A stretch of DNA of 34,883 nucleotides from an uncultured Syntrophobacterales bacterium (GTDB lineage Bacteria > Desulfobacterota > Syntrophia > Syntrophales > UBA5619): contig CAIYSL010000108.1 in the NCBI GenBank assembly GCA_903928915.1, positions 1-34,883 on the forward strand. The letters run 5' to 3'. The position numbers and the translations under genes are program-made. Position 1 is the first letter of the stretch. Every line of letters begins with the position of its first letter. Under the pieces are notes generated by a model. The model saw only the letters and a list, made by a program, of their open reading frames with translations. It was not told where the DNA came from and made no database searches. This document shows positions 1 through 12,727 of the stretch, in pieces.

Positions 1-109
1 CGACGATGATGCCCAGGATCAGCCCGATGCATGCGATCAACAGATTGTACGGCTGAAACGCAACACCAAGCCCCATCAGGAGATTATTGAAGTCTGCAAG
101 GAATGACAT
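1..109 (-). CDS. tctA: Tripartite tricarboxylate transporter TctA family permease (N-terminal fragment)
   Basis: Only the first 36 codons are in the window; the gene runs off the left edge. The start ATG is preceded by a purine-rich AAGGGGG about 8 bases upstream. The peptide begins MSFLADFNNLLMGLGVAFQP and continues into a hydrophobic stretch (LLIACIGLILGIIV), which matches the usual start of TctA, the large multi-spanning membrane subunit of TTT-family secondary carboxylate transporters. It is the last visible gene of the tctC-tctB-tctA series, 60 bases after tctB. The identity rests on this N-terminus plus context. The substrate cannot be read from it. Confidence 0.8.
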   Translation of the reverse strand, partial: MSFLADFNNLLMGLGVAFQPYNLLIACIGLILGIIV

Positions 110-169
110 GGTACACGCCCCCTTCTTTGTTTGTCTCAATCAAGGATCGGAATACCACAGATCATGTTC

Positions 170-646
170 TCAAAACGGGATCAACATATCTCCCCATAGT
201 CCCTGGGGGAGAGGCACCAGAAAGAGTTTGTCGAAAGCGATGTAGAGCGAAAGCGGAACGAGGAAGCTCACGAGCAGTGTCTTCACCCAGGCGATCTTTC
301 CCACGGTCCGCATGTAGAACCCCAGAAACAGCGCGGCGGCGATGTGGAGCCCGACCAGTTCCGTAAGAATGATCATGCCCGTCGAAGGGATAAGAACCCA
401 GAGGATGGGTTTCAGTGCCCCCACGGGCATGAGGCGCTTCCCGTAGCCGTCCTTTTTATACTTTCCGTAGATGCCCCAGAACGTTAGGAGGGAGCACACG
501 ATCAACCCCAAACCAAGGTAAAAGGGGAAGAGCCCCGCTTCCGGACCGGTCACCCCCCATCCAAAACCGAGCCTAACTGCGTCGAAGATCAACAGACACC
601 CGACGACCAGAAAGAACAAGGCGATCAGTATATCAGCCGTTCTCAT
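170..646 (-). CDS. tctB: Tripartite tricarboxylate transporter TctB family protein
   Basis: A 158-residue integral membrane protein with four predicted hydrophobic segments (about residues 5-25, 38-60, 78-105 and 118-145), the size and topology of TctB, the small membrane subunit of TTT transporters. The N-terminus (ADILIALFFLVVGCLLIFDA) and the following GPEAGLFPFYLG are typical of the family, in which a G-P-x-x-G-x-x-P segment recurs. The ATG follows a GGGAGGAG ribosome site. It lies between tctC (100 bases upstream, separated by a strong stem-loop) and tctA. TctB works with TctA in proton- or sodium-coupled uptake of the ligand delivered by TctC. The family call is confident; the substrate is unknown. 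Confidence 0.88.
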   Translation of the reverse strand: MRTADILIALFFLVVGCLLIFDAVRLGFGWGVTGPEAGLFPFYLGLGLIVCSLLTFWGIYGKYKKDGYGKRLMPVGALKPILWVLIPSTGMIILTELVGLHIAAALFLGFYMRTVGKIAWVKTLLVSFLVPLSLYIAFDKLFLVPLPQGLWGDMLIPF

Positions 647-691
647 ATACCTACTCCTCCCTTGAAGGTCGCTAACGTGGCAGACCCTGCG

Positions 692-742
692 GGAACGAGG
701 GATGGAGCGCGGGCATTTCCCCCCGCGCCACCCCCTCGTTCC
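692..742 (-). promoter_or_regulatory. Long stem-loop between tctC and tctB
   Basis: A two-part inverted repeat. The outer arms GGAACGAGGG (692-701) and CCCTCGTTCC (733-742) are perfectly complementary over 10 bp, and the inner arms GCGCGGG (707-713) and CCCGCGC (722-728) over 7 bp. It starts 5 bases past the tctC stop codon in the direction of transcription and has no U-tract, so it is unlikely to be a normal intrinsic terminator. By analogy with known intercistronic hairpins between binding-protein and permease genes, it probably protects the tctC message from 3' decay or causes partial termination, giving more TctC than TctBA. That role is inference. Confidence 0.6.
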
Positions 743-746
743 ATCG

Positions 747-1745
747 TCATTTCTTCTTCAGCAAGTTGCCTTTGGCCATCAGGTCCTTTGTCAACGTTTC
801 CTTATCTTCGAGCCATTTGACAAAGTCAGGTCCGGTCAGAAAGGCGGATTTCAACCCCATGTCTTCGATGTACTTCTTCCATTCGGAGGTCTCGGTCACC
901 TTCTTCATCATGTTGACGTAGAACTCCTGCTGATCCTTGGTGACGCCCGGCGCCGTGAATATGCCGCGCAGCATCAGATAGCTCATGTCCGTTCCCGACG
1001 ACTCCTTCATGGTCGGGATATCCTTCCAGAGGGGGAGGTTGATCCGCTCGTGATCGATCGTGGCCAAGGGTTTGAGCTTTCCCGCCTTCCATTGACTCAC
1101 CGCCTCGGCGGGGTTGTTCACCGTGGAGTTGACGTGCTTCCCCACGAGTTGTACCGCCACGTCCCCACCGCCCTTGAAGGGCACATAGGAGAACTTCGCG
1201 CCAAAGGCCTGCTCAAACATGACGGTGATGATCTGGTCCTCCTGGGCCGAACCCGTGCCTCCCATCATGAACTTACCGGGCTCCTTTTTCACCGCCTCGA
1301 AATACTCCTTGGCCGTCTTGTACGGGGCCTCCGCGTTGACCCAGAGGCAGAAATAGTCCAGCGCCATTCGTGCCACCGGGGTCATGTCCCGCCAGTTGAA
1401 CGGGACCCCGGTCGCCAGCGGTGTGGTGAACAGGTTGTCGAGCGTGATGATGATCACGTGGGGGTTCTTGCTGTTTCCCTTCACGTAGAGAAACCCCTCG
1501 GCCCCGGCGCCGCCGGACTTATTGATCACGATCACGGGTTTCGGTGACAGATTGTACTTGCTGATGATCGGCGCGATGAACCGCGCCATCACGTCCGCGC
1601 CGCCCCCCGCGCCAGCCGGAATGATGAACTCAATCGGCTTCGTGGGCTGCCAGGCGGCGTTCGTCGTGGAGACGGAGAAAGCGAGCAGAAGGAGCGGAAA
1701 GACGAGCGTCACGACGAGTTTCGATGTCCAAGACATTCTCTGCAT
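747..1745 (-). CDS. tctC: Tripartite tricarboxylate transporter substrate-binding protein (Bug/TctC family)
   Basis: A 332-residue periplasmic binding protein. Residues 1-30 form a signal peptide: basic start, hydrophobic core LVVTLVFPLLLLAF, and a likely cleavage after TTNA. The mature protein starts with W-x-P-x-K-P-I-E-F-I-I-P and a glycine-rich AGAGGGADVMAR loop, the usual ligand-carboxylate-binding region of the Bug family; KFMMGGTGSAQ and YVPFKGGGD are further family landmarks. The ATG at 1745 has an ideal AAGGAGGTG 5 bases upstream. It is encoded after the oxidoreductase genes and before tctB/tctA, so it probably captures the carboxylate fed to that pathway. Bug proteins bind many carboxylates and the ligand cannot be predicted here. 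Stem-loops on both sides suggest it is expressed at a different level from its neighbours. Confidence 0.93.
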   Translation of the reverse strand: MQRMSWTSKLVVTLVFPLLLLAFSVSTTNAAWQPTKPIEFIIPAGAGGGADVMARFIAPIISKYNLSPKPVIVINKSGGAGAEGFLYVKGNSKNPHVIIITLDNLFTTPLATGVPFNWRDMTPVARMALDYFCLWVNAEAPYKTAKEYFEAVKKEPGKFMMGGTGSAQEDQIITVMFEQAFGAKFSYVPFKGGGDVAVQLVGKHVNSTVNNPAEAVSQWKAGKLKPLATIDHERINLPLWKDIPTMKESSGTDMSYLMLRGIFTAPGVTKDQQEFYVNMMKKVTETSEWKKYIEDMGLKSAFLTGPDFVKWLEDKETLTKDLMAKGNLLKKK

Positions 1746-1849
1746 ACAGCACCTCCTTGAATTGTTGGAAACTGATCCTTCCAGCCAAATACCTTGAAGC
1801 GCTATAACTGAACTCGGTCCTTGGAACGCGAATCCTCCTTCGGTAGGAG

Positions 1850-1877
1850 AGGCCCTCCCCGCACGCGGGGAGGGCCT
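1850..1877 (-). promoter_or_regulatory. Strong stem-loop in the porB-tctC intergenic region
   Basis: Perfect inverted repeat AGGCCCTCCCC (1850-1860) / GGGGAGGGCCT (1867-1877). A further G-C pair closes a CACG tetraloop, making a 12-bp stem. No U-tract follows on either strand. It sits in the 181-base gap between the por and tct parts of the operon. It could be a 5' stabiliser of tctC mRNA, a processing boundary, or a weak terminator for the por genes. The same gap has no convincing sigma-70 promoter. Confidence 0.6.
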
Positions 1878-1926
1878 GTGAGATAGTATCGATGCGGGCG
1901 AAAAAAGCTGCCCCGCGCCGCCCGCC

Positions 1927-2946
<1,020 letters not shown>

Positions 2947-4128
2947 CTACATCCCGAGCCACTGGACATACGTCCGGATCTTCTTCTCCTTGACCGCCTG
3001 CAAGAGGACCTTTGCCATGTAGTCGAAATCCTTCGGCCAGATCGTCTCGCCGCCGAGACCTCCCATGAAGGAGGTGACCAGGGGCCGCTCATCGAGATCG
3101 TACAGGCTCGCCCGGAGCTCATGGATGAGATTGCCGCCCCGCATCGCCCCTCCGTACGAGGTGCTCGTCTCGATCACCCCTACGGCCTTGACGTGTCCGA
3201 GGGCATTGGCGAGCTGGTGGGTCGGCCAGGGACGGACCCAACGCAGCCGCGCCATGCCTGCCTTGACCCCCTGGCTACGGAGCCGGTCCACTGAGGACCG
3301 GCAGGTGTTGGCATGGGCGCCCTGAATGAAGAAAGCGATCTCGGCGTCCTCCAGCTTGTACTGTTCGACGAAGGGATCGTAGTTCCTCCCGAAGATGCGA
3401 TTGAAGTCAGCAGTCGCCTCTTCGATCACTTTGGGGACCGCCAGGAAGGTCTGCGCCCGCATGGCATCCATCGGGGCGCCCTGGTCCGGCCGGATCTGGG
3501 GACCGTGGGAAACGGGGTGGGTCGTGCTCAGGGGGCCAATCGGCCGGTAGGGGGGCAGGAACTCCTTTACCTGCGACTGGTCCCCCAGGGTAACCTTGTC
3601 CGGGATATGGGAGATGAAATAGCCGTCCTGGCACACCATCTGGGGGAGCATCACGCGGTGGTCTTCCCCGACCCGGTAAGCGATCAGGGTGTTGTCGTAC
3701 ACCTCCTGGGGGGAGCAGGCCCAGCCCAGAAGCCAGCCCTGGTCCCTCGTCGACATGGCATCGGTGTGTTCCGAGCCGAAATCACCGGGCGGGTCGAGCG
3801 TCCGGTCGGCAATGGACATCTGTGCGGGGTACCGGCCGCCGGCCATCGGGCTGTACACCTCCATCGCATAGGTCACGCCGACCCCGGAGCTCCCCGTGAA
3901 GGCGCGGGCCCCGGAGGCGCAGGCCCCCAGCACCACCGATACCTGGGCATGCTCGCCTTCGCCGTGGACGAATTCCGCATTCAACTCGCCGTTGGCGACC
4001 ATTTTCGAGAGTTCCATCATGATCGCCGTGTAGGGACGGATCGGGTAAGAACAGATCACTTCCACCTCGGCCGCCTTCGCGCCCTCTGCGGCTGCGCGGC
4101 AACCTGTCATCATTTGTTCTTTCGCCAT
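2947..4128 (-). CDS. porA: 2-oxoacid:ferredoxin oxidoreductase, alpha subunit (PorA type), with altered YPITP motif
   Basis: The 393-residue alpha subunit, covering the pyrimidine-binding domain I and the transketolase-C-like domain II. GEGEHAQ near residues 56-62 supplies the conserved glutamate that activates ThDP. SEHTDAMSTRDQGW (about 119-132) matches the NDHSDxMxxRDTGW block of PorA proteins, and R109 in the preceding ADRTLDPP lies where PorA has its substrate-contacting arginine. The motif normally read YPITP is YPIRP here (residues 28-32), with Arg31 in place of the threonine that contacts the 2-oxoacid carboxylate in characterised enzymes. This hints at a different substrate; the alignment was made by eye. 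The start has an AAAGGAGGAG site. It is the third por gene, 15 bases after porD. Confidence 0.87.
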   Translation of the reverse strand: MAKEQMMTGCRAAAEGAKAAEVEVICSYPIRPYTAIMMELSKMVANGELNAEFVHGEGEHAQVSVVLGACASGARAFTGSSGVGVTYAMEVYSPMAGGRYPAQMSIADRTLDPPGDFGSEHTDAMSTRDQGWLLGWACSPQEVYDNTLIAYRVGEDHRVMLPQMVCQDGYFISHIPDKVTLGDQSQVKEFLPPYRPIGPLSTTHPVSHGPQIRPDQGAPMDAMRAQTFLAVPKVIEEATADFNRIFGRNYDPFVEQYKLEDAEIAFFIQGAHANTCRSSVDRLRSQGVKAGMARLRWVRPWPTHQLANALGHVKAVGVIETSTSYGGAMRGGNLIHELRASLYDLDERPLVTSFMGGLGGETIWPKDFDYMAKVLLQAVKEKKIRTYVQWLGM

Positions 4129-4143
4129 AGTCTTGCTCCTCCT

Positions 4144-4497
4144 TTAGAAAGGTTTCTCCAAGCGAACCACACCATCCGGGAAGTCGAGCTCGGGCGCCGC
4201 GGTGAGCGCCCCGGTCGGGCACTCTTGGATGCAGATCTGACACCCCTTGCAGAAATTTGCGATCCAGTACATCTCGTCTTCCGCCTCCTTGTACTCCCAG
4301 CAGGCGTCCGGACAGCTCATGTAGCAGACGAGGCAACGGGTACATTTCTCGTCTTCCTTGACCGGACGCTTCATCCGCCAGTTCGATGTCTGAAACAGGT
4401 CCTGGGTGCAGACAGGCGCCGGGGTAACGGCGCCGAAGGGCACTTCTCTATCCTTGGGAACGTTGATGGTCCCGTACCCGGGAAGTTCTTTTGCCAT
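4144..4497 (-). CDS. porD: 2-oxoacid:ferredoxin oxidoreductase, delta subunit (2x[4Fe-4S] ferredoxin)
   Basis: A 117-residue ferredoxin-like subunit. Two C-x2-C-x2-C-x3-C clusters are visible: C52, C55, C58, C62 and C83, C86, C89, C93, with CPTGA after the second. It should wire electrons from the beta-subunit cluster to soluble ferredoxin. An upstream in-frame ATG exists at 4515, but the ATG at 4497 has AAGGAGG six bases away and gives the normal PorD length, so I chose it. About 45 residues precede the first cluster, which is usual for PorD. It sits between the gamma and alpha subunit genes. Confidence 0.92.
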   Translation of the reverse strand: MAKELPGYGTINVPKDREVPFGAVTPAPVCTQDLFQTSNWRMKRPVKEDEKCTRCLVCYMSCPDACWEYKEAEDEMYWIANFCKGCQICIQECPTGALTAAPELDFPDGVVRLEKPF

Positions 4498-4568
4498 GGT
4501 AGCCTCCTTAAGCATCTGGGTTATTTTCTCTTCGTACCGCCCATCCCGCAGTGCGCGTATCGCGCGGA

Positions 4569-5177
4569 TCAGGCCAACTTCTTGATCACGACCTCGTTGT
4601 AGCCCCGCTCCATACCGGAGACGTCGCTGACGACCTTGGCGAGATGCTCTTTCTTGATCATCCCGGTCACCTTCGCGATGGCGCCGCAGACAGGCGCCGC
4701 AATGCCCTTGCCGATGCCGGATACGTCAACGCCGCCTTCCGACCCGGAGAAGTCAACGGTCCTGACCCCGGTGATGCCGTCGGCGTCCACGGTGGCGATC
4801 GTGGCCAGCAGATTGGAGTTGGGTATGAACTTCAGCAGGTCATCTATCGGACGCTTGGAGTTGACGATCAGGGTGCCGCCCTTCTCCATACCGCGCAGGA
4901 TGTCGATGCCTTTGATGATCGACTCCTCGATGACGACGACCAATTCGGGCTTGTCGTTCGTGTAGACGTACTTGTGTTCGATCTCCGCGTCGCTCAGCCG
5001 GACGTATTTGCGGACCGTAACGAGGACGCGGTCGGGCAGGTCTTCGTAGTTATCAAAGGCCTGCGCGTGCTTGCCATCCATCTGGGCGGCTTTGGCAAAA
5101 ATATTGATGACGTCGCGCCCCTCCTTGTCCATGATCACGCCCCGCGCCCACACAGTGATTTCGTGTACCTTTGCCAT
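4569..5177 (-). CDS. porC: 2-oxoacid:ferredoxin oxidoreductase, gamma subunit, divergent (no GRGGQG loop)
   Basis: A 202-residue gamma-subunit homologue, first gene of the structural operon. The fold landmarks remain: an early beta strand (ITVWARG), KHAQAFDNYE where gamma subunits have K-x-A-Q-x-F, PELVVVIEES, and GGTLIVNSKRP. However, the W-x-GRGGQGxV loop of ordinary PorC/KorC subunits reads WARGVIMDKEG here, and the FGxERRGxPV stretch reads DNYEDLPDRVLV. These loops lie near the acyl-acceptor region in known enzymes, so acceptor or substrate use may differ. The start at 5177 has AAGGAGGTG four bases upstream; an upstream ATG at 5240 is in frame but lacks support. It is 84 bases after the regulator gene. 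Confidence 0.8.
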   Translation of the reverse strand: MAKVHEITVWARGVIMDKEGRDVINIFAKAAQMDGKHAQAFDNYEDLPDRVLVTVRKYVRLSDAEIEHKYVYTNDKPELVVVIEESIIKGIDILRGMEKGGTLIVNSKRPIDDLLKFIPNSNLLATIATVDADGITGVRTVDFSGSEGGVDVSGIGKGIAAPVCGAIAKVTGMIKKEHLAKVVSDVSGMERGYNEVVIKKLA

Positions 5178-5261
5178 ACACACCTCCTTGATGTTCCGGT
5201 AAATGAATATCGACTCGTTTCCGCATTTGCTGCTTGCCACCGACCCAACAAGCCCCGACCG

Positions 5262-5990
5262 TCAATCACCTCCCCCCTTCCCCTTGTTCTTAAAAACGAT
5301 ATCCTCGATATCCTCCAGGTGCTGAAGCATCGATCGTTTGGCGCCGCCGGCATCCCCTTCCTTGATCGCGGCAAGGACCAGTTTATGGCCTTCCAGCGAT
5401 CGGTTCGGCCGCCTATTGTTCTGATCATCCTCGGGGAGAAAGAACTCCCGCGACTGTTTTAGGAAATCGACCAGAGCTACACTGATCCGTTCCACAACCT
5501 GATTCCTTGAGGCACAGGCCATAAGGCTGTGAAACGCCGAATCGGTCTCGATGATGCTTTCGTTACGATCGATACAGCGCTCTTGCCTTTTCAGGATCTC
5601 TTCCATCTCCGCGATTTCGCGGGGCGTGGCGTTTTCGGCCGCGAGTTCGGCGACGTGAGGTTCGATGATCTTCCGCACATAGAAGATGTCCCGGATGTCA
5701 TCCTCCGCGTTGAACAACGCTGCGGCCAGCGGCTGGACCAACTCTTCTTCGCTCGTAGCCAGGACGTACGTACCGTTCCCCTGGCGACTTTGGAGGAGCT
5801 TCATCGACTCGAGGGTACGGATGGCCTCCCGGACTGTGGTACGGGATACCTTGAAGATTTCCGTCAATTCCCGCTCCGAGGGGAGTTGATCGCCCTGCTT
5901 CAATTTTCCATTCTCAATCAGCGCCATGACCTGATGGACGATACTCTCGTATGCGCGTTTCTTCTCGACGACCTTCAGCGACTGCCGCAT
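5262..5990 (-). CDS. GntR family transcriptional regulator, FadR/FCD subfamily
   Basis: A 242-residue repressor-type protein. Residues about 12-80 are a winged helix-turn-helix, with the GntR signature LPSERELTEIFKVSRTTVRE and the wing QGNGTYV. Residues about 95-230 form an all-helical FCD ligand-binding domain; Asp/His residues in ETDSAFH, the EGH near 192 and the QH near 215 fit the metal-binding site that holds carboxylates in this subfamily. It is encoded just upstream of and in line with the oxidoreductase/transporter genes, so it probably regulates them in response to the imported acid or a product. It lies 54 bases after the AAA ATPase gene, so read-through is possible. The best ribosome site (GGAG) is 16 bases from the ATG, so the start is less certain. 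Confidence 0.9.
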   Translation of the reverse strand: MRQSLKVVEKKRAYESIVHQVMALIENGKLKQGDQLPSERELTEIFKVSRTTVREAIRTLESMKLLQSRQGNGTYVLATSEEELVQPLAAALFNAEDDIRDIFYVRKIIEPHVAELAAENATPREIAEMEEILKRQERCIDRNESIIETDSAFHSLMACASRNQVVERISVALVDFLKQSREFFLPEDDQNNRRPNRSLEGHKLVLAAIKEGDAGGAKRSMLQHLEDIEDIVFKNKGKGGGD

Positions 5991-6044
5991 AATGTAATCG
6001 TTTCTGCTCCTTTCCTCCTCCGCAGGGGCTCGTCCTCCGGAATG

Positions 6045-8210
6045 CTATCCTTTCCCGTTTCCCTTCTGTACCCGAGAGGCCTCGGATTCCCTCAGTTCCT
6101 CCAGCGCTGTGCTTAAATGGGCCGCAGTCACTGTCAGGCTGGCGGCTGTCTTCTCCCTCCCGGAATGGATGATCTCGGCGATGGCCATCATGACCGCCCG
6201 CTGGCAGATGGAGGCGATGTGGGAGCCCACCATTCCTTCGGTCTGACGCGCCAACGCCGCGAGTTCTACATCGCGGTGCAAGGGCCTCCCCCGGGTGTTG
6301 ATCCGAAAAATCTCCAACCGCTCCGTTTCGTCGGGAGCGGCAAACCTGAGGATGAAGTCGAGGCGGCCCGGGCGTGTCAGGGCGGGGTCGAGCATCTCCT
6401 CCCGATTCGTGGCCCCGATCACGATGACCTCGGACAGATCGTTTAGCCCGTCCAACTCGCTGAAAAATTGACTGGCCACGCGCTCAACCGCCCCCGAATC
6501 TGTTTCCGCGCCGCGCCGGGTCGCCAGGGCGTCGATCTCGTCGAAGAACAGGATCGTCGGAGCTGACTGCTTGGCCTTCTTGAATATCTCGTGCAACGCC
6601 TTTTCCGACTCCCCCAGCCATTTCGAAAAGAGGATGGAGCTGCTGATGGGGATGAAATTCAGCCCCGTTTCCCCGGCAAGCGCTTTGACGATGAGGCTCT
6701 TGCCGGTGCCCGACGGTCCGGTCAGGAGGATCCCGCGGGACGAGATCTTCCCTGCATTGAACAGTTCCGGGTACTTCAACGGCCAATCGACGATGGCGAT
6801 CAGCGTTTCCTTGATCCGGGCCAGTCCTCCCACGTCGCTGAGCTTCAGGGTGGACCGCTCATTGAAGAATTGCCGGGTTGCCGTCGGTTCTACCTCCCGA
6901 AGGGCGGTCATGAAATCCTCCCGGGATACCTGCATGTGCTCCGGTGTCACCGGAAGCCGGTTTGCGCTATCGATGGCGCCCACGGGCAGGTATCTCCGCA
7001 CTGCCGCCATGCCGGCCTCTTTGCACAGCGCCTCCACATCCGCGCCCACGAACCCGTGGGTGATCTGCGCGATGTGCGCTAGGTCCACGTCCGCGGCCAG
7101 CGGCATCCGACGGCTGTGGATCTTCAGAATCGCCAGACGCCCTTCCACGTGGGGTGCGGAAATGCTGATTTCGCGGTCGAAGCGCCCCGGCCTCCGAAGG
7201 GCGGGGTCGATCATTTCCGGGACGTTGGTGGCGCCGATCACCAGGACATGCCCGCGAGGCACGGTGCCGTCCATCAGGGCCAGAAGCTGCGCCACCACCC
7301 GCTTTTCCACATCCCCGATCACATCGGCGCGTTTCGGGGCGATGGCGTCGATCTCATCGATGAAGATCACGCTCGGGGCCTTGCGCGTCGCCTCTTCGAA
7401 TATCTCGCGCAGCCTCGCCTCGCTGTCGCCGTAAAATTTCTGGATGATTTCCGGCCCGTTGATCCGGATGAAGTGGAGTTTCGCTTCGCTCGCGATGGCC
7501 CGCGCAATCAGGGTTTTCCCCGTTCCCGGCGGTCCGTACAGCAGCAACCCCTTCGGCGCTTCGATGCCGAGGCGGTCGAAGATCTCCCCGTACCGCAGAG
7601 GGATCTCCACCATCTCCCGCACGGTCCGCAGCTCCCGCTCCAGACCGCCGATGTCTTCGTAAGAAACCCGAGATTCCCCTTTTTCCGTATAATCCGGCCG
7701 GTTCACCTTAAACCGGGTTTGCTGGTTGATGATCACCGGACCGGTCGGCGATGTGCCGTCGACGGTAAAGAAACGATCCTTGCCACCGAAAAGCGGGATG
7801 TTCAGCTTGTCGCCGGAGATGACCGCCAAGCCCTGGAGCATCTTGCCGATATAGCCCAATTCGCTGTCGTCGGGCCACCAGTTGCCAGAATCCAGGGGCG
7901 AAAGCACGACGGCCGTCGCGGTCTGCCGGGAGGCTTTCCTCAGGGTTACCGTCCCCCCCACCTGCACCCGTGCATTCTCACGGGTGATGCTGTCGATCTG
8001 GACTATCTTCTTGCCGAGAAATTCCGGAAAGATTCCCGATATCCGGGCAACGGTCTTCCTTTCCCCGGTGATCTCAAGCACGTCCCCCAGCGAAGCACCC
8101 AGCGATCCGGCGTCGGCGGGATCAAGGCGCGCCAACCCCTTTCCCACATCCTCGATGAAGATCTCCGCAACCTTCAGTCTCAGCTCACACGGGGTAGGCT
8201 CAGCAGTCAT
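6045..8210 (-). CDS. CDC48/VAT-like AAA+ ATPase (two AAA rings)
   Basis: A 721-residue homologue of archaeal VAT and eukaryotic p97. Residues 8-100 resemble the double-psi-barrel CDC48 N domain and 105-168 the second CDC48 N subdomain. D1 has Walker A GPPGTGKT (226-233), Walker B FIDEID (283-288) and an RRPGRFD arginine-finger block. D2 has GPSGTGKS (498-505), FFDEID (555-560) and TRPGRLD. Aromatic pore-loop residues occur in both rings (KFYG 258-261, KWLG 530-533), as in protein-threading unfoldases. The C-terminus ends in KGNGKG with no HbYX proteasome-docking tail. The ATG at 8210 with AGGAG nearby is preferred to the in-frame start at 8273. Its role in the cell is unknown; protein or complex unfolding is likely. 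It may be co-transcribed with the downstream gntR gene. Confidence 0.93.
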   Translation of the reverse strand: MTAEPTPCELRLKVAEIFIEDVGKGLARLDPADAGSLGASLGDVLEITGERKTVARISGIFPEFLGKKIVQIDSITRENARVQVGGTVTLRKASRQTATAVVLSPLDSGNWWPDDSELGYIGKMLQGLAVISGDKLNIPLFGGKDRFFTVDGTSPTGPVIINQQTRFKVNRPDYTEKGESRVSYEDIGGLERELRTVREMVEIPLRYGEIFDRLGIEAPKGLLLYGPPGTGKTLIARAIASEAKLHFIRINGPEIIQKFYGDSEARLREIFEEATRKAPSVIFIDEIDAIAPKRADVIGDVEKRVVAQLLALMDGTVPRGHVLVIGATNVPEMIDPALRRPGRFDREISISAPHVEGRLAILKIHSRRMPLAADVDLAHIAQITHGFVGADVEALCKEAGMAAVRRYLPVGAIDSANRLPVTPEHMQVSREDFMTALREVEPTATRQFFNERSTLKLSDVGGLARIKETLIAIVDWPLKYPELFNAGKISSRGILLTGPSGTGKSLIVKALAGETGLNFIPISSSILFSKWLGESEKALHEIFKKAKQSAPTILFFDEIDALATRRGAETDSGAVERVASQFFSELDGLNDLSEVIVIGATNREEMLDPALTRPGRLDFILRFAAPDETERLEIFRINTRGRPLHRDVELAALARQTEGMVGSHIASICQRAVMMAIAEIIHSGREKTAASLTVTAAHLSTALEELRESEASRVQKGNGKG

Positions 8211-8439
8211 CACGATTGTCTCCTGACACTGGTTTACAAAGCGTCCCTCTAGAAGCGTTGAGCTTCTGCACAATGAAGGAAACGGTCACGACGAACCGTA
8301 AAGAGTGGCGAACATCCTTATGCTCCGCAGAACTCCGGCCTTGCTTCGCCGGTTCCTAGGCACTCAGGGACTTCGGATACAGAACGGTTGCGATAAATTG
8401 GGCTGCTGGCATGATGGTCTGTCCATTAAACGGCTTCAG
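8211..8439 (-). other. Long untranslated leader of the CDC48-like ATPase gene
   Basis: About 230 bases between the candidate promoter and the start codon, with no convincing reading frame. One clear hairpin lies at 8330-8355: GAAC/GTTC and CGGC/GCCG arms with a 2-base bulge and an 8-base loop. I could not match the leader to any riboswitch class I know. The pckG stop side (8492-8582) shows no clear intrinsic terminator. Confidence 0.4.
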
Positions 8440-8491
8440 CTTATGACGGGATTATCCCCTTTGTCAAGAAAATATTATGAAGAAAATATTA
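8440..8491 (-). promoter_or_regulatory. Candidate sigma-70 promoter with AT-rich tandem repeats, upstream of the CDC48-like gene
   Basis: On the minus strand a perfect -35 TTGACA (8467-8462), a 16-base spacer and a -10 CATAAG (8445-8440). Directly upstream are two copies of the same 12-mer (AAGAAAATATTA on the plus strand, 8466-8477 and 8480-8491), spaced 14 bp, which look like an UP element or paired binding sites. The spacer holds an 11-bp perfect palindrome, GGGAT-T-ATCCC (8448-8458), in a position where a repressor could block RNA polymerase. This part is read directly from sequence; its activity is inferred. Confidence 0.55.
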
Positions 8492-8582
8492 CCGAAGCAG
8501 GATCACCTTCCCAGCCCGGGGTACCGCGAGATCACTGCTACGGGCGCTGCTCTCGGACTCCGCAATGAAGGCGCTCCTCACC

Positions 8583-10364
8583 TCAGCCCAGGCGCCTTCC
8601 CAGCTCGGCGAGCTGATGCCGGAGCCGCTCGGGAAGCCGGTCGCCGAACTGGGCAAAGCTCCGCTCGATATCGGCGACCTCTCCCTTCCAGGCCTCGCGA
8701 TCGACGCGCAGGAGTTCCTGGAGGTCCACTGCCGATTGGGCGAGGCCGGTAAGGTCGAGGTCCTCCTGGCGGGGCATCAGGCCGATCGGGGTTTCGACCG
8801 CCCCGACCTCGCCCTCGAGCCGCTGGCACATCCATTTCAACACGCGGCTGTTCTCCCCGAATCCCGGCCAGAGCCACTTGCCGTCCGCGTTTCTCCGAAA
8901 CCAGTTGACGTAGAAGATGCGGGGCGCCTTATTCCCGAACCGATCGCCCATCTCCAGCCAGTGCCCGAAATAATCTGCCATGTTGTACCCGCAGAAGGGC
9001 TGCATGGCGAAGGGATCCCGGCGGAGATTGCCCACGGCGCCGATGTTGGCGGCGGTTGTCTCCGATGAGGCCGTAGCGCCCATGAACACCCCCTGGTCCC
9101 AGCCGGCGGCTTCGTGGACCAGCGGCACGACTCCCGTGCGGCGACCGCCGAACACGAAGATGTCGATCGGCACCCCCTGGGGGAGCTCCCAGTCCGGCGA
9201 GATGGACGGACACTGCCGGGCCGGAGCGGTGAAGCGGGCGTTGGGGTGGGCCGCCGGCTCACCGCTCGCCGGGGTCCAGTCCCGCCCCTTCCAGTCGATG
9301 GCGTGCCGTGGCGGGGCCCCATCCATCCCTTCCCACCAGATATCGCCGTCATCGGTCAGGGCGCAGTTGGTGAAGATGGTGTTCTCCTTCAGGGTATCCA
9401 TCGCCGCGGGGTTTGACGAGTAGGAGGTGCCAGGTGCGACCCCGAAGAACCCGCTTTCCGGGTTGATGGCGTAGGGTCTGCCGTCGGGACCGATCTTGAT
9501 CCAGGCGATATCGTCGCCGATGGTCTCGCACTTCCACCCGGGAATGGTCGGCGTGAGCATGGCGAGGTTGGTCTTTCCACAGGCGGAGGGAAAGGCGGCG
9601 GCGATGTGGAATCGCCTCCCCGCGGGGTTCGTCAACCGCAGGATGAGCATGTGCTCCGCCATCCACCCTTCACGCCTCGCCATCGCCGAAGCGATACGCA
9701 GCGCCAGGCACTTCTTTCCGAGCAGCGCGTTGCCACCGTAACCGCTGCCGTAGGACCAGATGAGGTTCTCCTCCGGGAAATGGCTGATGTACTTCTTTTC
9801 GAGCGGTGCGCAGGGCCAGGCTGAATCCGCTTCCCCCGGGGCAAGCGGGGCGCCGATCGAATGCAGGCATGGGATAAACTCGCCGTCGGCCCCCAGCTTC
9901 TCGAGGACCTTCGTGCCGACTCGCGTCATGATGTGCATGTTGCAGACGACGTACGGGCTGTCGGTTATCTCTATGCCGACCTTCGCGAGCGGCGAATCGA
10001 TCGGCCCCATGGAAAAGGGGATCACGTACATCGCCCGTCCCCGCATGCACTCCCGGTAGAGCCCCTTCATCGTCGCCTTGAGTTCCTCCGGGGCAACCCA
10101 GTTGTTCGTCGGTCCGGCGTCGTCGCGGTTGGCAGTGCTGATATAGGTCCGCGATTCGATCCGCGCCACATCGCTCGGCTGAGACCGGAAGAGAAAGCTC
10201 TGGGGACGTTTCTTCAAGGGGATGGCCATGCCGCTGGAGACCATCCGGTTCATCAACTGCTCGTATTCTCCCGGGCTGCCGTCGCACCAGACAACGGTAT
10301 CGGGCCGACACCAGGCAACCGTACTGTCGACCCACTCCTTCAGTTTTGCGTGTTGTACAGTCAT
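8583..10364 (-). CDS. pckG: Phosphoenolpyruvate carboxykinase (GTP)
   Basis: A 593-residue GTP-dependent PEPCK (oxaloacetate + GTP to PEP + GDP + CO2), cytosolic, close to the usual family length. The kinase-1a/P-loop FPSACGKTN is at 258-266, the substrate-binding R-loop region [19 protein letters not shown] is near 71-89, and [15 protein letters not shown] at 205-219 is a family signature. GTP-type enzymes differ from the ATP type in this P-loop cysteine. The enzyme links C4 acids with the PEP pool, in gluconeogenesis or anaplerosis. The start has AAAGGA 6 bases upstream. It is divergent from the VTT-domain gene across a 154-base region that holds a perfect 10-bp inverted repeat. Confidence 0.97.
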
Positions 10365-10396
10365 AGGACATCCTTTCTTTGTTGTATGCCAAAATA

Positions 10397-10439
10397 TCCC
10401 GCTTTACAAGAACCTGCCCTTTTGCTAATTAAAGCGGGA
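10397..10439. promoter_or_regulatory. Perfect 10-bp inverted repeat in the pckG/VTT divergent region
   Basis: TCCCGCTTTA (10397-10406) and TAAAGCGGGA (10430-10439) are exact reverse complements separated by 23 bp. Their centres are 33 bp apart, about three helical turns, so two half-sites would face the same side of the DNA. A weak pckG promoter can be drawn nearby (TTGTAA-N17-TACAAC on the minus strand). The pair may be an operator controlling pckG, the divergent membrane gene, or both. A long-loop RNA hairpin in the pckG leader is the alternative. Confidence 0.45.
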
Positions 10440-10518
10440 AATCACCGCTGCGGAGAACCGCTACGGGACCGGACGGTAGGACGGAATCCGGATAGGGAAA
10501 ACCACAGGTTACCCACTC

Positions 10519-11193
10519 ATGAACGGTAAGGCCTTTATCAAGATCGCGATCCTGCTTAGCCTGATCGCCCTGTGCGTATTTCTGTTTTTCCACTACAATC
10601 TCGCTACCTTCTTCCTCAGCCGGCAGAAGATCATCGAATTCGTAAACTCCTTCGGCCCCCTTTCGGTGGTGATCTTCATCGGCCTCCAGATCCTGCAGGT
10701 GATTGTCGCGCCGATTCCGGGAGAAGTCAATGGCTTTATCGGAGGATACCTGTACGGCCCTGTCCTGGGTACGCTCTATTCCACGATCGGGCTTACCATC
10801 GGCTCGTGGATCGCCTTCTCGCTCGCCCGGTGGCTCGGGCTTCCTTTCGTGGAAAAGGTGCTCGATCAAAAGATCCTCAGGAAGTACGACCACTTCATGG
10901 AGCACCGCGGTACCTCGATCACCTTCATCCTCTTCCTCATCCCCGGGTTCCCGAAGGACGCCCTTTCCTACATCATCGGCCTCAGCCACATGAAGACCAC
11001 GACCTTCCTGATGCTCTGCATGGGCGGGCGCCTCTTCGGCACCATCATGCTCTCCGTAAGCGGAAACTGTGCCCGCAACGATCAGCCCATTGCCCTGGCG
11101 GCAATCCTCGCAATCAGCACCCTGATCGTGGTCCTGGCCTATTACTACCATGATGAGCTCCTCCACCGGGTACGGAAAAAGCCGAACCCCTGA
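10519..11193 (+). CDS. VTT-domain membrane protein (TVP38/TMEM64 / DedA-like)
   Basis: A 224-residue inner-membrane protein. Hydrophobic segments lie near residues 7-27, 48-70, 80-105, 135-160 and 190-212. The VTT/SNARE-associated domain motif PIPGEVNGFIGGYLYGPVLG, followed by GSWIAFSLARWLG, is near 72-118, and FLIPGFPKDALSYIIG near 145-160 is the second re-entrant motif. Proteins of this family are linked to lipid scrambling or undecaprenyl-phosphate recycling, but the substrate cannot be assigned here. The ribosome site is weak. It is divergent from pckG and is followed by a candidate terminator. Confidence 0.87.
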   Translation: MNGKAFIKIAILLSLIALCVFLFFHYNLATFFLSRQKIIEFVNSFGPLSVVIFIGLQILQVIVAPIPGEVNGFIGGYLYGPVLGTLYSTIGLTIGSWIAFSLARWLGLPFVEKVLDQKILRKYDHFMEHRGTSITFILFLIPGFPKDALSYIIGLSHMKTTTFLMLCMGGRLFGTIMLSVSGNCARNDQPIALAAILAISTLIVVLAYYYHDELLHRVRKKPNP

Positions 11194-11273
11194 GCGTGGA
11201 GTGTCGCCCGGGGTCCCCGATTCGATGCCGCTGACCCGCCGTTCGCCCCTGCGGCTTTCGGCGGCCGCGATGA

Positions 11274-11299
11274 TCGGGATAGCGGTCCCGGAGTTTTTC
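11274..11299 (+). terminator. Candidate intrinsic terminator after the VTT-domain gene
   Basis: CGGGA (11275-11279) and TCCCG (11286-11290) form a short stem with a 6-base loop, followed by GAG and five T residues. A second GC-rich inverted repeat, CCGCCG/CGGCGG (11236-11241 / 11259-11264), lies just before it. The stem is short, so termination may be partial. Confidence 0.45.
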
Positions 11300-11389
11300 C
11301 GTTTATTTCTCCTGTGATGCGCTCACGGAACGCACCTTCCAGGAGGGGGGATACCTGAGAGCGGTGTCCTGTTAAGGAGGCAGACAGCC

Positions 11390-12727
11390 GTGGAAGTACT
11401 CGTCAATGAAGCCGTCATCATCCTGCTGTTGATCTTGGCCAACGCCTTTTTCTCGGGCTCCGAACTGGCCGTGATCTCCGCCCGCAAGAGTTACATTGCC
11501 AGCCTCGCCGCAGCGGGCAATCCGCGGGCCAGGCTTGTCGAGGCGATCCAGAAGGATCCGCACCGTTTTCTGGCAACCGTCCAGATCGGGGTCACCGTCG
11601 TCGGGTCACTTGCCTCGGCCGTCGGCGGCGCCGCTGCCGTTCAAGTCCTGAAACCGCTGCTGGAAGACGCCCCCGTCCCCTTCATCCGGCGTGCCGCCGA
11701 GCCGCTCTCCATCGCCGCGGTCGTCATGGGGATATCCTATCTTTTCCTCGTCCTGGGCGAGCTGGCCCCGAAGACGATCGGCCTGCAGTACGCGGACCGG
11801 ATCGCCCTGCGGGTTGCCAAGCCGATCCATTTCCTGTCGGTGATTGCGGTCGTCGTGGTCAGGTTCCTCACCCTCTCCAACCGTGCCGTCCTCTCGCTGA
11901 TCGGGATCCAGCCGAAGGAGGGCCACGCCTTCGTGACCCGGGAGGAGGTGCAGCAGGTCCTCTCGCAGGGGAGCGAAGCGGGCGCCCTGACCGAGACCGA
12001 GCACCGGTACATCGAAAACATCTTCGAGTTCACCCACACGGCGGTACGCGAGGTGATGGTGCCGCGGACCCGGATCGTCGCCCTCAACCTGGAGCTCCCG
12101 CGGGAAGAGATCCTCCGGATGGTCCGGGAAAACCTGTATTCCCGCTACCCGGTCTACCGGGGCGACCTCGACCACATCGTCGGGTTCGTCCATACCAAGG
12201 ATATCCTTCTCGGCCGGCTCTGCCCCGACAACGCATTGGACCTCAAGGGGATCATCCGCACCCCGCTGTTCGTGCCCGAGGGGAAAAAGATCAACAGCCT
12301 TCTCAAGGAGATGCAGCGCAAACGGATCCAGATGGCGCTGGTCATAGACGAATACGGCATCCTGAGCGGCCTCGCCACGACCGAAGACCTTCTGGAGGAA
12401 CTGGTCGGGGAGATCGAGGACGAGCACGATGTGGGAGAAACGCGCCGGTACCAGAAACTCCCGGACGGAAGCCTGCTGGTGGACGCACTCATCCCCGTCA
12501 ACGACATCGAGGAACTGCTCGAAGTGGAACTGGGGGATTTTCTGCCCTATGACACCCTGGCCGGATTGATCCTGGACCGGCTGGGACGAATACCCGAGAA
12601 GGGTGAAACGCTGGAGTGGCAGGATTTTCTGCTCACCTGCGAGGAGGTCACCAAGACGGCCATCCTCAAGGTGAAAATCACCCGGATCGAAAAACCGGCG
12701 GACGGCCAGCCGGACACTCTGCACTGA
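11390..12727 (+). CDS. Hemolysin/CorC-type membrane protein (DUF21-CBS-CBS-CorC_HlyC)
   Basis: A 445-residue protein. Residues about 1-195 are a DUF21/CNNM transmembrane domain (opening [33 protein letters not shown] near 124-136). About 205-335 are paired CBS domains beginning [12 protein letters not shown], and about 350-435 a CorC_HlyC domain ([15 protein letters not shown]). The family is associated with divalent-cation (Mg/Co) export or homeostasis; the name hemolysin is historical. The start is GTG at 11390, with a perfect AAGGAGG nine bases upstream. It ends 56 bases before the convergent TIM-barrel gene. Confidence 0.93.

Follow-up and report, generated by a model that had tools for sequence, protein, structure and literature searches.

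Gene content of the locus

We analyzed a 34,883-nucleotide stretch of DNA from an uncultured Syntrophobacterales bacterium (here called the window, meaning the whole stretch). Its first part carries a minus-strand operon in the order AAA ATPase, GntR regulator, gamma, delta, alpha, beta, TctC, TctB, and TctA, with the four lettered genes assigned to oxalate oxidoreductase (OOR). The features are as follows:

6045 to 8210, minus strand: CDC48-type AAA+ ATPase (N domain, D1, D2); reading frame open from TTG 8273
5262 to 5990, minus strand: GntR/FCD regulator, probable operon regulator
4569 to 5177, minus strand: OOR gamma subunit, encoded separately; start probably ATG 5177, preceded by AAGGAGG, frame open from 5240
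4144 to 4497, minus strand: OOR delta subunit, encoded separately; two cysteine motifs of the ferredoxin type, frame also open from 4515
2947 to 4128, minus strand: OOR alpha subunit (POR_N), 393 aa; YPIRP at 28 to 32, Arg109, loop DPPGDFG at 112 to 118
4033 to 4047, minus strand: YPIRP codons (alpha residues 28 to 32), position computed from the alpha frame
1927 to 2910, minus strand: OOR beta subunit, with ThDP and the proximal 4Fe-4S; top-scoring PDB chain 5c4i_C, 494 bits
747 to 1745, minus strand: TctC substrate-binding protein, probable oxalate receptor
170 to 646, minus strand: TctB small membrane subunit
1 to 109, minus strand: TctA-like gene, first 36 codons, truncated where the contig ends; identified from its position and from matches in relatives

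The AAA gene (6045 to 8210) sits directly upstream of the GntR gene, whose product is, from its context, the probable regulator of the OOR operon. Upstream of the operon lies a gene for a GTP-type PEP carboxykinase (8583 to 10364, minus strand; 960 bits, cut-off 504). No structured RNA was found at gathering scores in positions 1 to 12000 of the window.

The alpha subunit and its pocket motif

The alpha frame is open on the minus strand for 393 aa, and the plus-strand frame at 2947 to 4128 contains a stop and is noncoding. A first-pass annotation of this DNA had placed YPIRP at residues 28 to 32, with Arg31 and a retained substrate arginine at R109, all of which the minus-strand translation and our alignment bear out. 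The refuting outcome that it named, an alignment with an ordinary threonine at the motif position, did not materialize: Arg31 falls in the YPITP column, which aligns exactly with the YPITP of the paralogues and the YPIRP of 5c4i_A, the Moorella OOR alpha chain. In a phmmer search of PDB sequences, 5c4i_A was the top match of alpha (481 bits; 217 of 390 aligned residues identical, 56%), followed by the four-subunit PFOR 9bt4_B at 208 bits. Alpha also passed the NCBIfam model for OOR alpha (548 bits, cut-off 500).

These scores bear on a rival reading, that of a ferredoxin oxidoreductase of the pyruvate or 2-oxoglutarate type whose YPIRP is either neutral or a mark of broad specificity. The superfamily is the same and PorA models also match, but the archaeal PorA score of 310 bits is far under its cut-off of 550. 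The genome's other 11 POR_N matches, moreover, all lack YPIRP (of 12 in total, nine read YPITP, one on C68 YPMTP, one on C115 YPGTP, and the window gene alone YPIRP), and 6 of 6 non-OOR rows of the alpha tree described below lack PIRP. The motif, the loop, the tree, and the family scores all led us to reject specificity for pyruvate or 2-oxoglutarate, and we regard this reading as barely credible.

YPIRP has been described as a motif unique to the OOR of Moorella thermoacetica, in which Arg31 provides the oxalate binding site, Arg109 is the sole pocket residue common to the Sulfolobus enzyme, and a bait-and-switch mechanism involves Arg31 and Asp116 (PMC5020499, the only paper on YPIRP found among open-access papers). 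The window alpha keeps Arg31, Arg109, and Asp116, and its DRTLDPPGDFG string, spanning Arg109 and the Asp112-Asp116 loop region, is identical to that of 5c4i_A. Because YPIRP/Arg31 is published as oxalate binding in Moorella OOR, the most likely substrate is oxalate, the smallest dicarboxylate. The earlier proposal that an added pocket arginine favors an acidic substrate was therefore right in direction, since the residue goes with a doubly charged substrate; the larger acidic 2-oxoacid that it suggested was not borne out. Likewise, the arginine change in the pocket is real, but its status as a new substrate motif is not, having already been published for the Moorella enzyme. The YPIRP finding is thus correct and already explained, and the window enzyme is an added member of the known OOR family.

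Beta, gamma, and delta subunits

Beta scored 560 bits with the NCBIfam OOR-beta model, 30 under the cut-off of 590, and this was its best family by 243 bits. Gamma had 5c4i_B as its best PDB chain (210 bits) and passed the OOR gamma-delta model (241 bits, cut-off 230). The best PDB match of delta was the C-terminal part of the same fused OOR chain, 5c4i_B; by itself delta reached 96 bits against the cut-off of 230, which is set for a fused gamma-delta chain.

By a mechanical test, gamma and delta form one frame in 14 of 54 rows and two in the other 40, a row set that includes L047 and two duplicate copies and leaves out the window, L013, and L024. All 14 fused rows come from the Bacillota sample except L047. 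At L150, gamma-delta (about 10050, minus strand) contains an internal TAG, and the mechanical rule scored this row as split; the MFS gene (5511 to 6833, minus strand) contains an internal stop. These stops reflect either strain decay or sequence error.

Clade membership and distribution of the alpha subunit

The alignment comprised 63 rows: the window alpha, 5c4i_A, and 61 alphas taken from fetched loci, from which alphas of <300 or >559 residues had been dropped beforehand. PIRP occurs in 57 of the 63 rows, and 56 of these 57 keep R109 and DPPGDFG at 112 to 118. Of the two candidates for the ThDP glutamate, Glu59 is a glutamate in 63/63 rows, and Glu57 is replaced by Asp in L042 and L171. The possibility that YPIRP is a sequencing error or a one-off was rejected, as 57 alphas in the tree carry PIRP, those of the window and Moorella included.

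The 57 YPIRP rows form one clade (SH-aLRT, 100) with L047 outermost, in a quick tree with SH-aLRT support only, long branches among the six non-YPIRP rows, and the motif columns left in; these columns cannot drive the tree, because the alignment has 396 columns. L047 (G198) is the sole exception among the PIRP rows, with YPIRP followed by NRALDDPGAFG, in which Asp116 is replaced by Ala, and its alpha scores 429 bits, below the OOR cut-off. YPIRP alone is therefore no proof of oxalate, and the substrate of L047 is possibly a different small dicarboxylate. Its locus (G198:C188, alpha 7997 to 9172, minus strand) has fused gamma-delta and a GntR gene, with no AAA gene nearby.

In the window's phylum, 8 of 297 genomes, the window's own included, have a protein that passes the OOR alpha model, as do 28 of 398 genomes in the phylum of the Bacillota locus L026; both samples are incomplete draws from larger groups. 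A ninth OOR genome in the first sample, G226, has a partial alpha match (387 bits, 242 of 395 positions covered) that retains YPIRP. Its locus, L048 (G226:C1), looks broken or frameshifted: the alpha match goes no further than residue 238, and the search for a downstream beta found none. A contig scan returned 21 loci, 20 of them OOR, with titles including Syntrophaceae, other Thermodesulfobacteriota, Nitrospirae, Bacillota, Methylomirabilota, Betaproteobacteria, and others. Plasmid-borne OOR was considered and rejected. A tblastn search of 72,556 plasmids matched 42 records, all at <60% identity and the best among the matches listed at 36%, so that these are other oxidoreductases. The OOR route of anaerobic oxalate oxidation, familiar mainly from an acetogen, is thus found in several other phyla as well, where its operon is well kept.

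Transport genes behind beta

Removing the divergent L047 and the copies L036 (= L022) and L045 (= L019) from a 57-row operon table left 54 distinct OOR loci. Ten of them have a TctC gene just behind beta, in the same orientation (the window, L015, L016 [41%], L017, L018, L019, L021, L027, L043, and L046). In 15, beta is followed by an MFS gene related to that of L009 (L009, L012, L014, L020, L026, L028, L145, L149, L150, L151, L153, L154, L155, L157, and L158); 4 of 4 MFS proteins tested passed the oxalate/formate antiporter model TIGR04259. No locus (0/54) has both behind beta, and in 29 neither was found there, in some because the contig ends. Tct genes lie elsewhere in the locus in L023, L025, and L044. 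The first-pass annotation had asked whether YPIRP marks a clade tied to tct genes. The clade exists, but the tie does not hold at these frequencies, and on the alpha tree the tct label needs 4 changes among rows with sufficient downstream DNA. Many OOR loci also have, beyond the transporter, an NAD-dependent epimerase/dehydratase-like gene (in L009, 12009 to 12941), for which no NCBIfam model scored over its cut-off.

Because a single operon slot alternates between Tct and an antiporter-type gene and never holds both, Tct probably carries oxalate. Based on this operon context, TctABC is probably an oxalate importer, which makes the Tct system a concrete candidate for that function.

TctC-family receptors bind many carboxylates, and this breadth, together with the divergent L047 and its YPIRP without Asp116, would accommodate an OOR-fold enzyme acting on another small dicarboxylate or a glyoxylate-type acid delivered by TctC. 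The window enzyme, however, retains the whole DPPGDFG loop, and L009, 91% identical, has an oxalate/formate-antiporter-type gene in the Tct slot, so we consider such a substrate very unlikely. We conclude, with a probability of roughly 0.94, that the window genes are an OOR operon with oxalate as the substrate and Tct as its probable importer. The gene identities and order, the pocket and loop residues, and the clade membership are read directly from sequence.

A CDC48-type ATPase beside the oxidoreductase

The ATPase at 6045 to 8210 matches PF02359 (68.6 bits, cut-off 35.1), PF02933 (30.4 bits, cut-off 22.4), and two AAA stretches; Walker A and B are present in both D1 and D2, and both aromatic pore loops are kept. 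It scores 790 bits with TIGR01243, whose cut-off is 802.65, and the genome has no other full-length CDC48-like gene.

Of the 49 testable loci, drawn from several phyla, 46 have an AAA gene upstream of OOR in the same orientation, the other 5 of the 54 distinct loci (L011, L013, L015, L024, and L170) having too little upstream DNA for the test. For L012 and L016, the contig ends within the AAA gene, so that just its C-terminal part is seen, and the genome of L037 was counted by contig coordinates. L150, the closest of the loci to Moorella OOR (99.2% alpha identity to 5c4i_A), has the AAA gene upstream as well. At E ≤ 1e-100, CDC48 matches occur in 33 of the 297 genomes from the window's phylum, namely, 9/9 OOR genomes, in every one of which a copy adjoins OOR, and 24/288 others. 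The corresponding figure in the Bacillota sample is 37 of 398 genomes, with 27/28 OOR genomes and 10/370 others, three of the latter being partial matches of 340 to 352 bits. Fisher tests gave p values of 9e-10 (297 genomes) and 2e-32 (398 genomes), both of which treat genomes as independent and are too small because of shared descent. The stronger point is the constancy of the AAA-gamma-delta-alpha-beta arrangement despite changes in regulator likeness, regulator place, and transporter.

In a tree of 62 proteins (quick, SH-aLRT only, with long rows L156, L171, L042, and L181), 17 CDC48s unlinked to OOR lie on one side of a branch with support of 96, and all 43 OOR-linked CDC48s, the window's included, lie on the other, as do two further rows from OOR genomes. 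Among 13 unlinked loci with wide flanks (L171 to L183), one, L171, is near another 2-oxoacid oxidoreductase, which has FPITP. One of these two further rows comes from G303, where, at locus L187 (G303:C80), an AAA-GntR pair of the OOR-linked kind sits with a rubredoxin-like gene beside a gamma-glutamyltransferase gene, without OOR. The ATPase lineage is therefore not strictly tied to OOR.

The context suggests a role for the ATPase in OOR assembly or remodeling. We tentatively propose, at a little under even odds, that OOR has its own CDC48-type unfoldase, a distinct two-ring AAA+ lineage, encoded in the operon itself from the Moorella relatives to Thermodesulfobacteriota, Nitrospirota, and Methylomirabilota, that would mature, repair, or remodel the enzyme. 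Such an ATPase might, for instance, free complexes stuck with a blocked ThDP adduct or load clusters. CbbX, which serves Rubisco, offers a comparison for this relation. The ATPase may instead be a mere bystander, inherited with the operon and with no job for OOR, which would fit three loci without an upstream AAA gene (L010 and the betaproteobacterial L023 and L025), the genome G335, which has OOR and no CDC48 match at E ≤ 1e-100 genome-wide, and the G303 pair adjoining a gamma-glutamyltransferase gene. A passenger gene is, however, harder to reconcile with its retention in 46/49 loci while the regulator, its place, and the transporter change, and with the skew of CDC48 toward OOR genomes in both samples, and we hold this explanation to be possible but rather doubtful. 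If the link is functional, this ATPase would be an example, open to testing, of a bacterial CDC48 devoted to a single client enzyme. No mention of a CDC48-type ATPase next to OOR was found in the open-access papers searched; the primary OOR papers were outside this search, so the link cannot be called unreported.

Proposed reaction and electron flow

TctABC would probably bring oxalate into the cell. By analogy with Moorella OOR, from which the substrate, reaction, and electron path are inferred, the dianion would bind near alpha Arg31 (of YPIRP) and Arg109, next to the ThDP on beta. Oxalate would then be cleaved to two CO2, and its electrons would reach ferredoxin by way of the 4Fe-4S clusters in beta and delta. 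We know of no measured activity for any OOR of the window's phylum.

A search of the genome for oxalyl-CoA decarboxylase (oxc) gave 8 matches, the best at 260 bits and none over the cut-off of 739, and OOR is therefore the only one present of the two oxalate routes looked for. The genome encodes dsrA (584 bits, cut-off 393) and has no match to acetyl-CoA synthase beta; electrons thus probably go elsewhere than acetogenesis, and those from oxalate may pass to sulfate or sulfite reduction.

Comparison with known systems

The closest known system is the OOR of Moorella thermoacetica (PDB 5c4i, 5exd, and 5exe), with which the window enzyme shares YPIRP, Arg109, the DPPGDFG loop, and the subunit make-up. 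PMC13290082 gives the Moorella alpha and beta genes as Moth_1592 and Moth_1591. Unlike the window, Moorella has gamma and delta fused in one chain (5c4i_B) rather than in two genes, an MFS antiporter-type gene downstream in place of TctABC, and the regulator upstream of AAA rather than between AAA and gamma. The four-subunit PFOR (PDB 9bt4) is like the window enzyme in subunit layout, fold, and ThDP and FeS chemistry but differs in having YPITP, an ordinary loop after the substrate arginine, and a lower score (208 versus 481 bits). OxlT-type oxalate/formate antiporters (TIGR04259) fill the slot behind beta in relatives, whereas the window has the tripartite Tct system there. With CDC48/VAT-type two-ring AAA+ ATPases, the window ATPase has in common CDC48_N, CDC48_2, two AAA modules, Walker motifs, and aromatic pore loops; it differs in being linked to OOR and in belonging to a lineage apart from the 17 other bacterial CDC48s.
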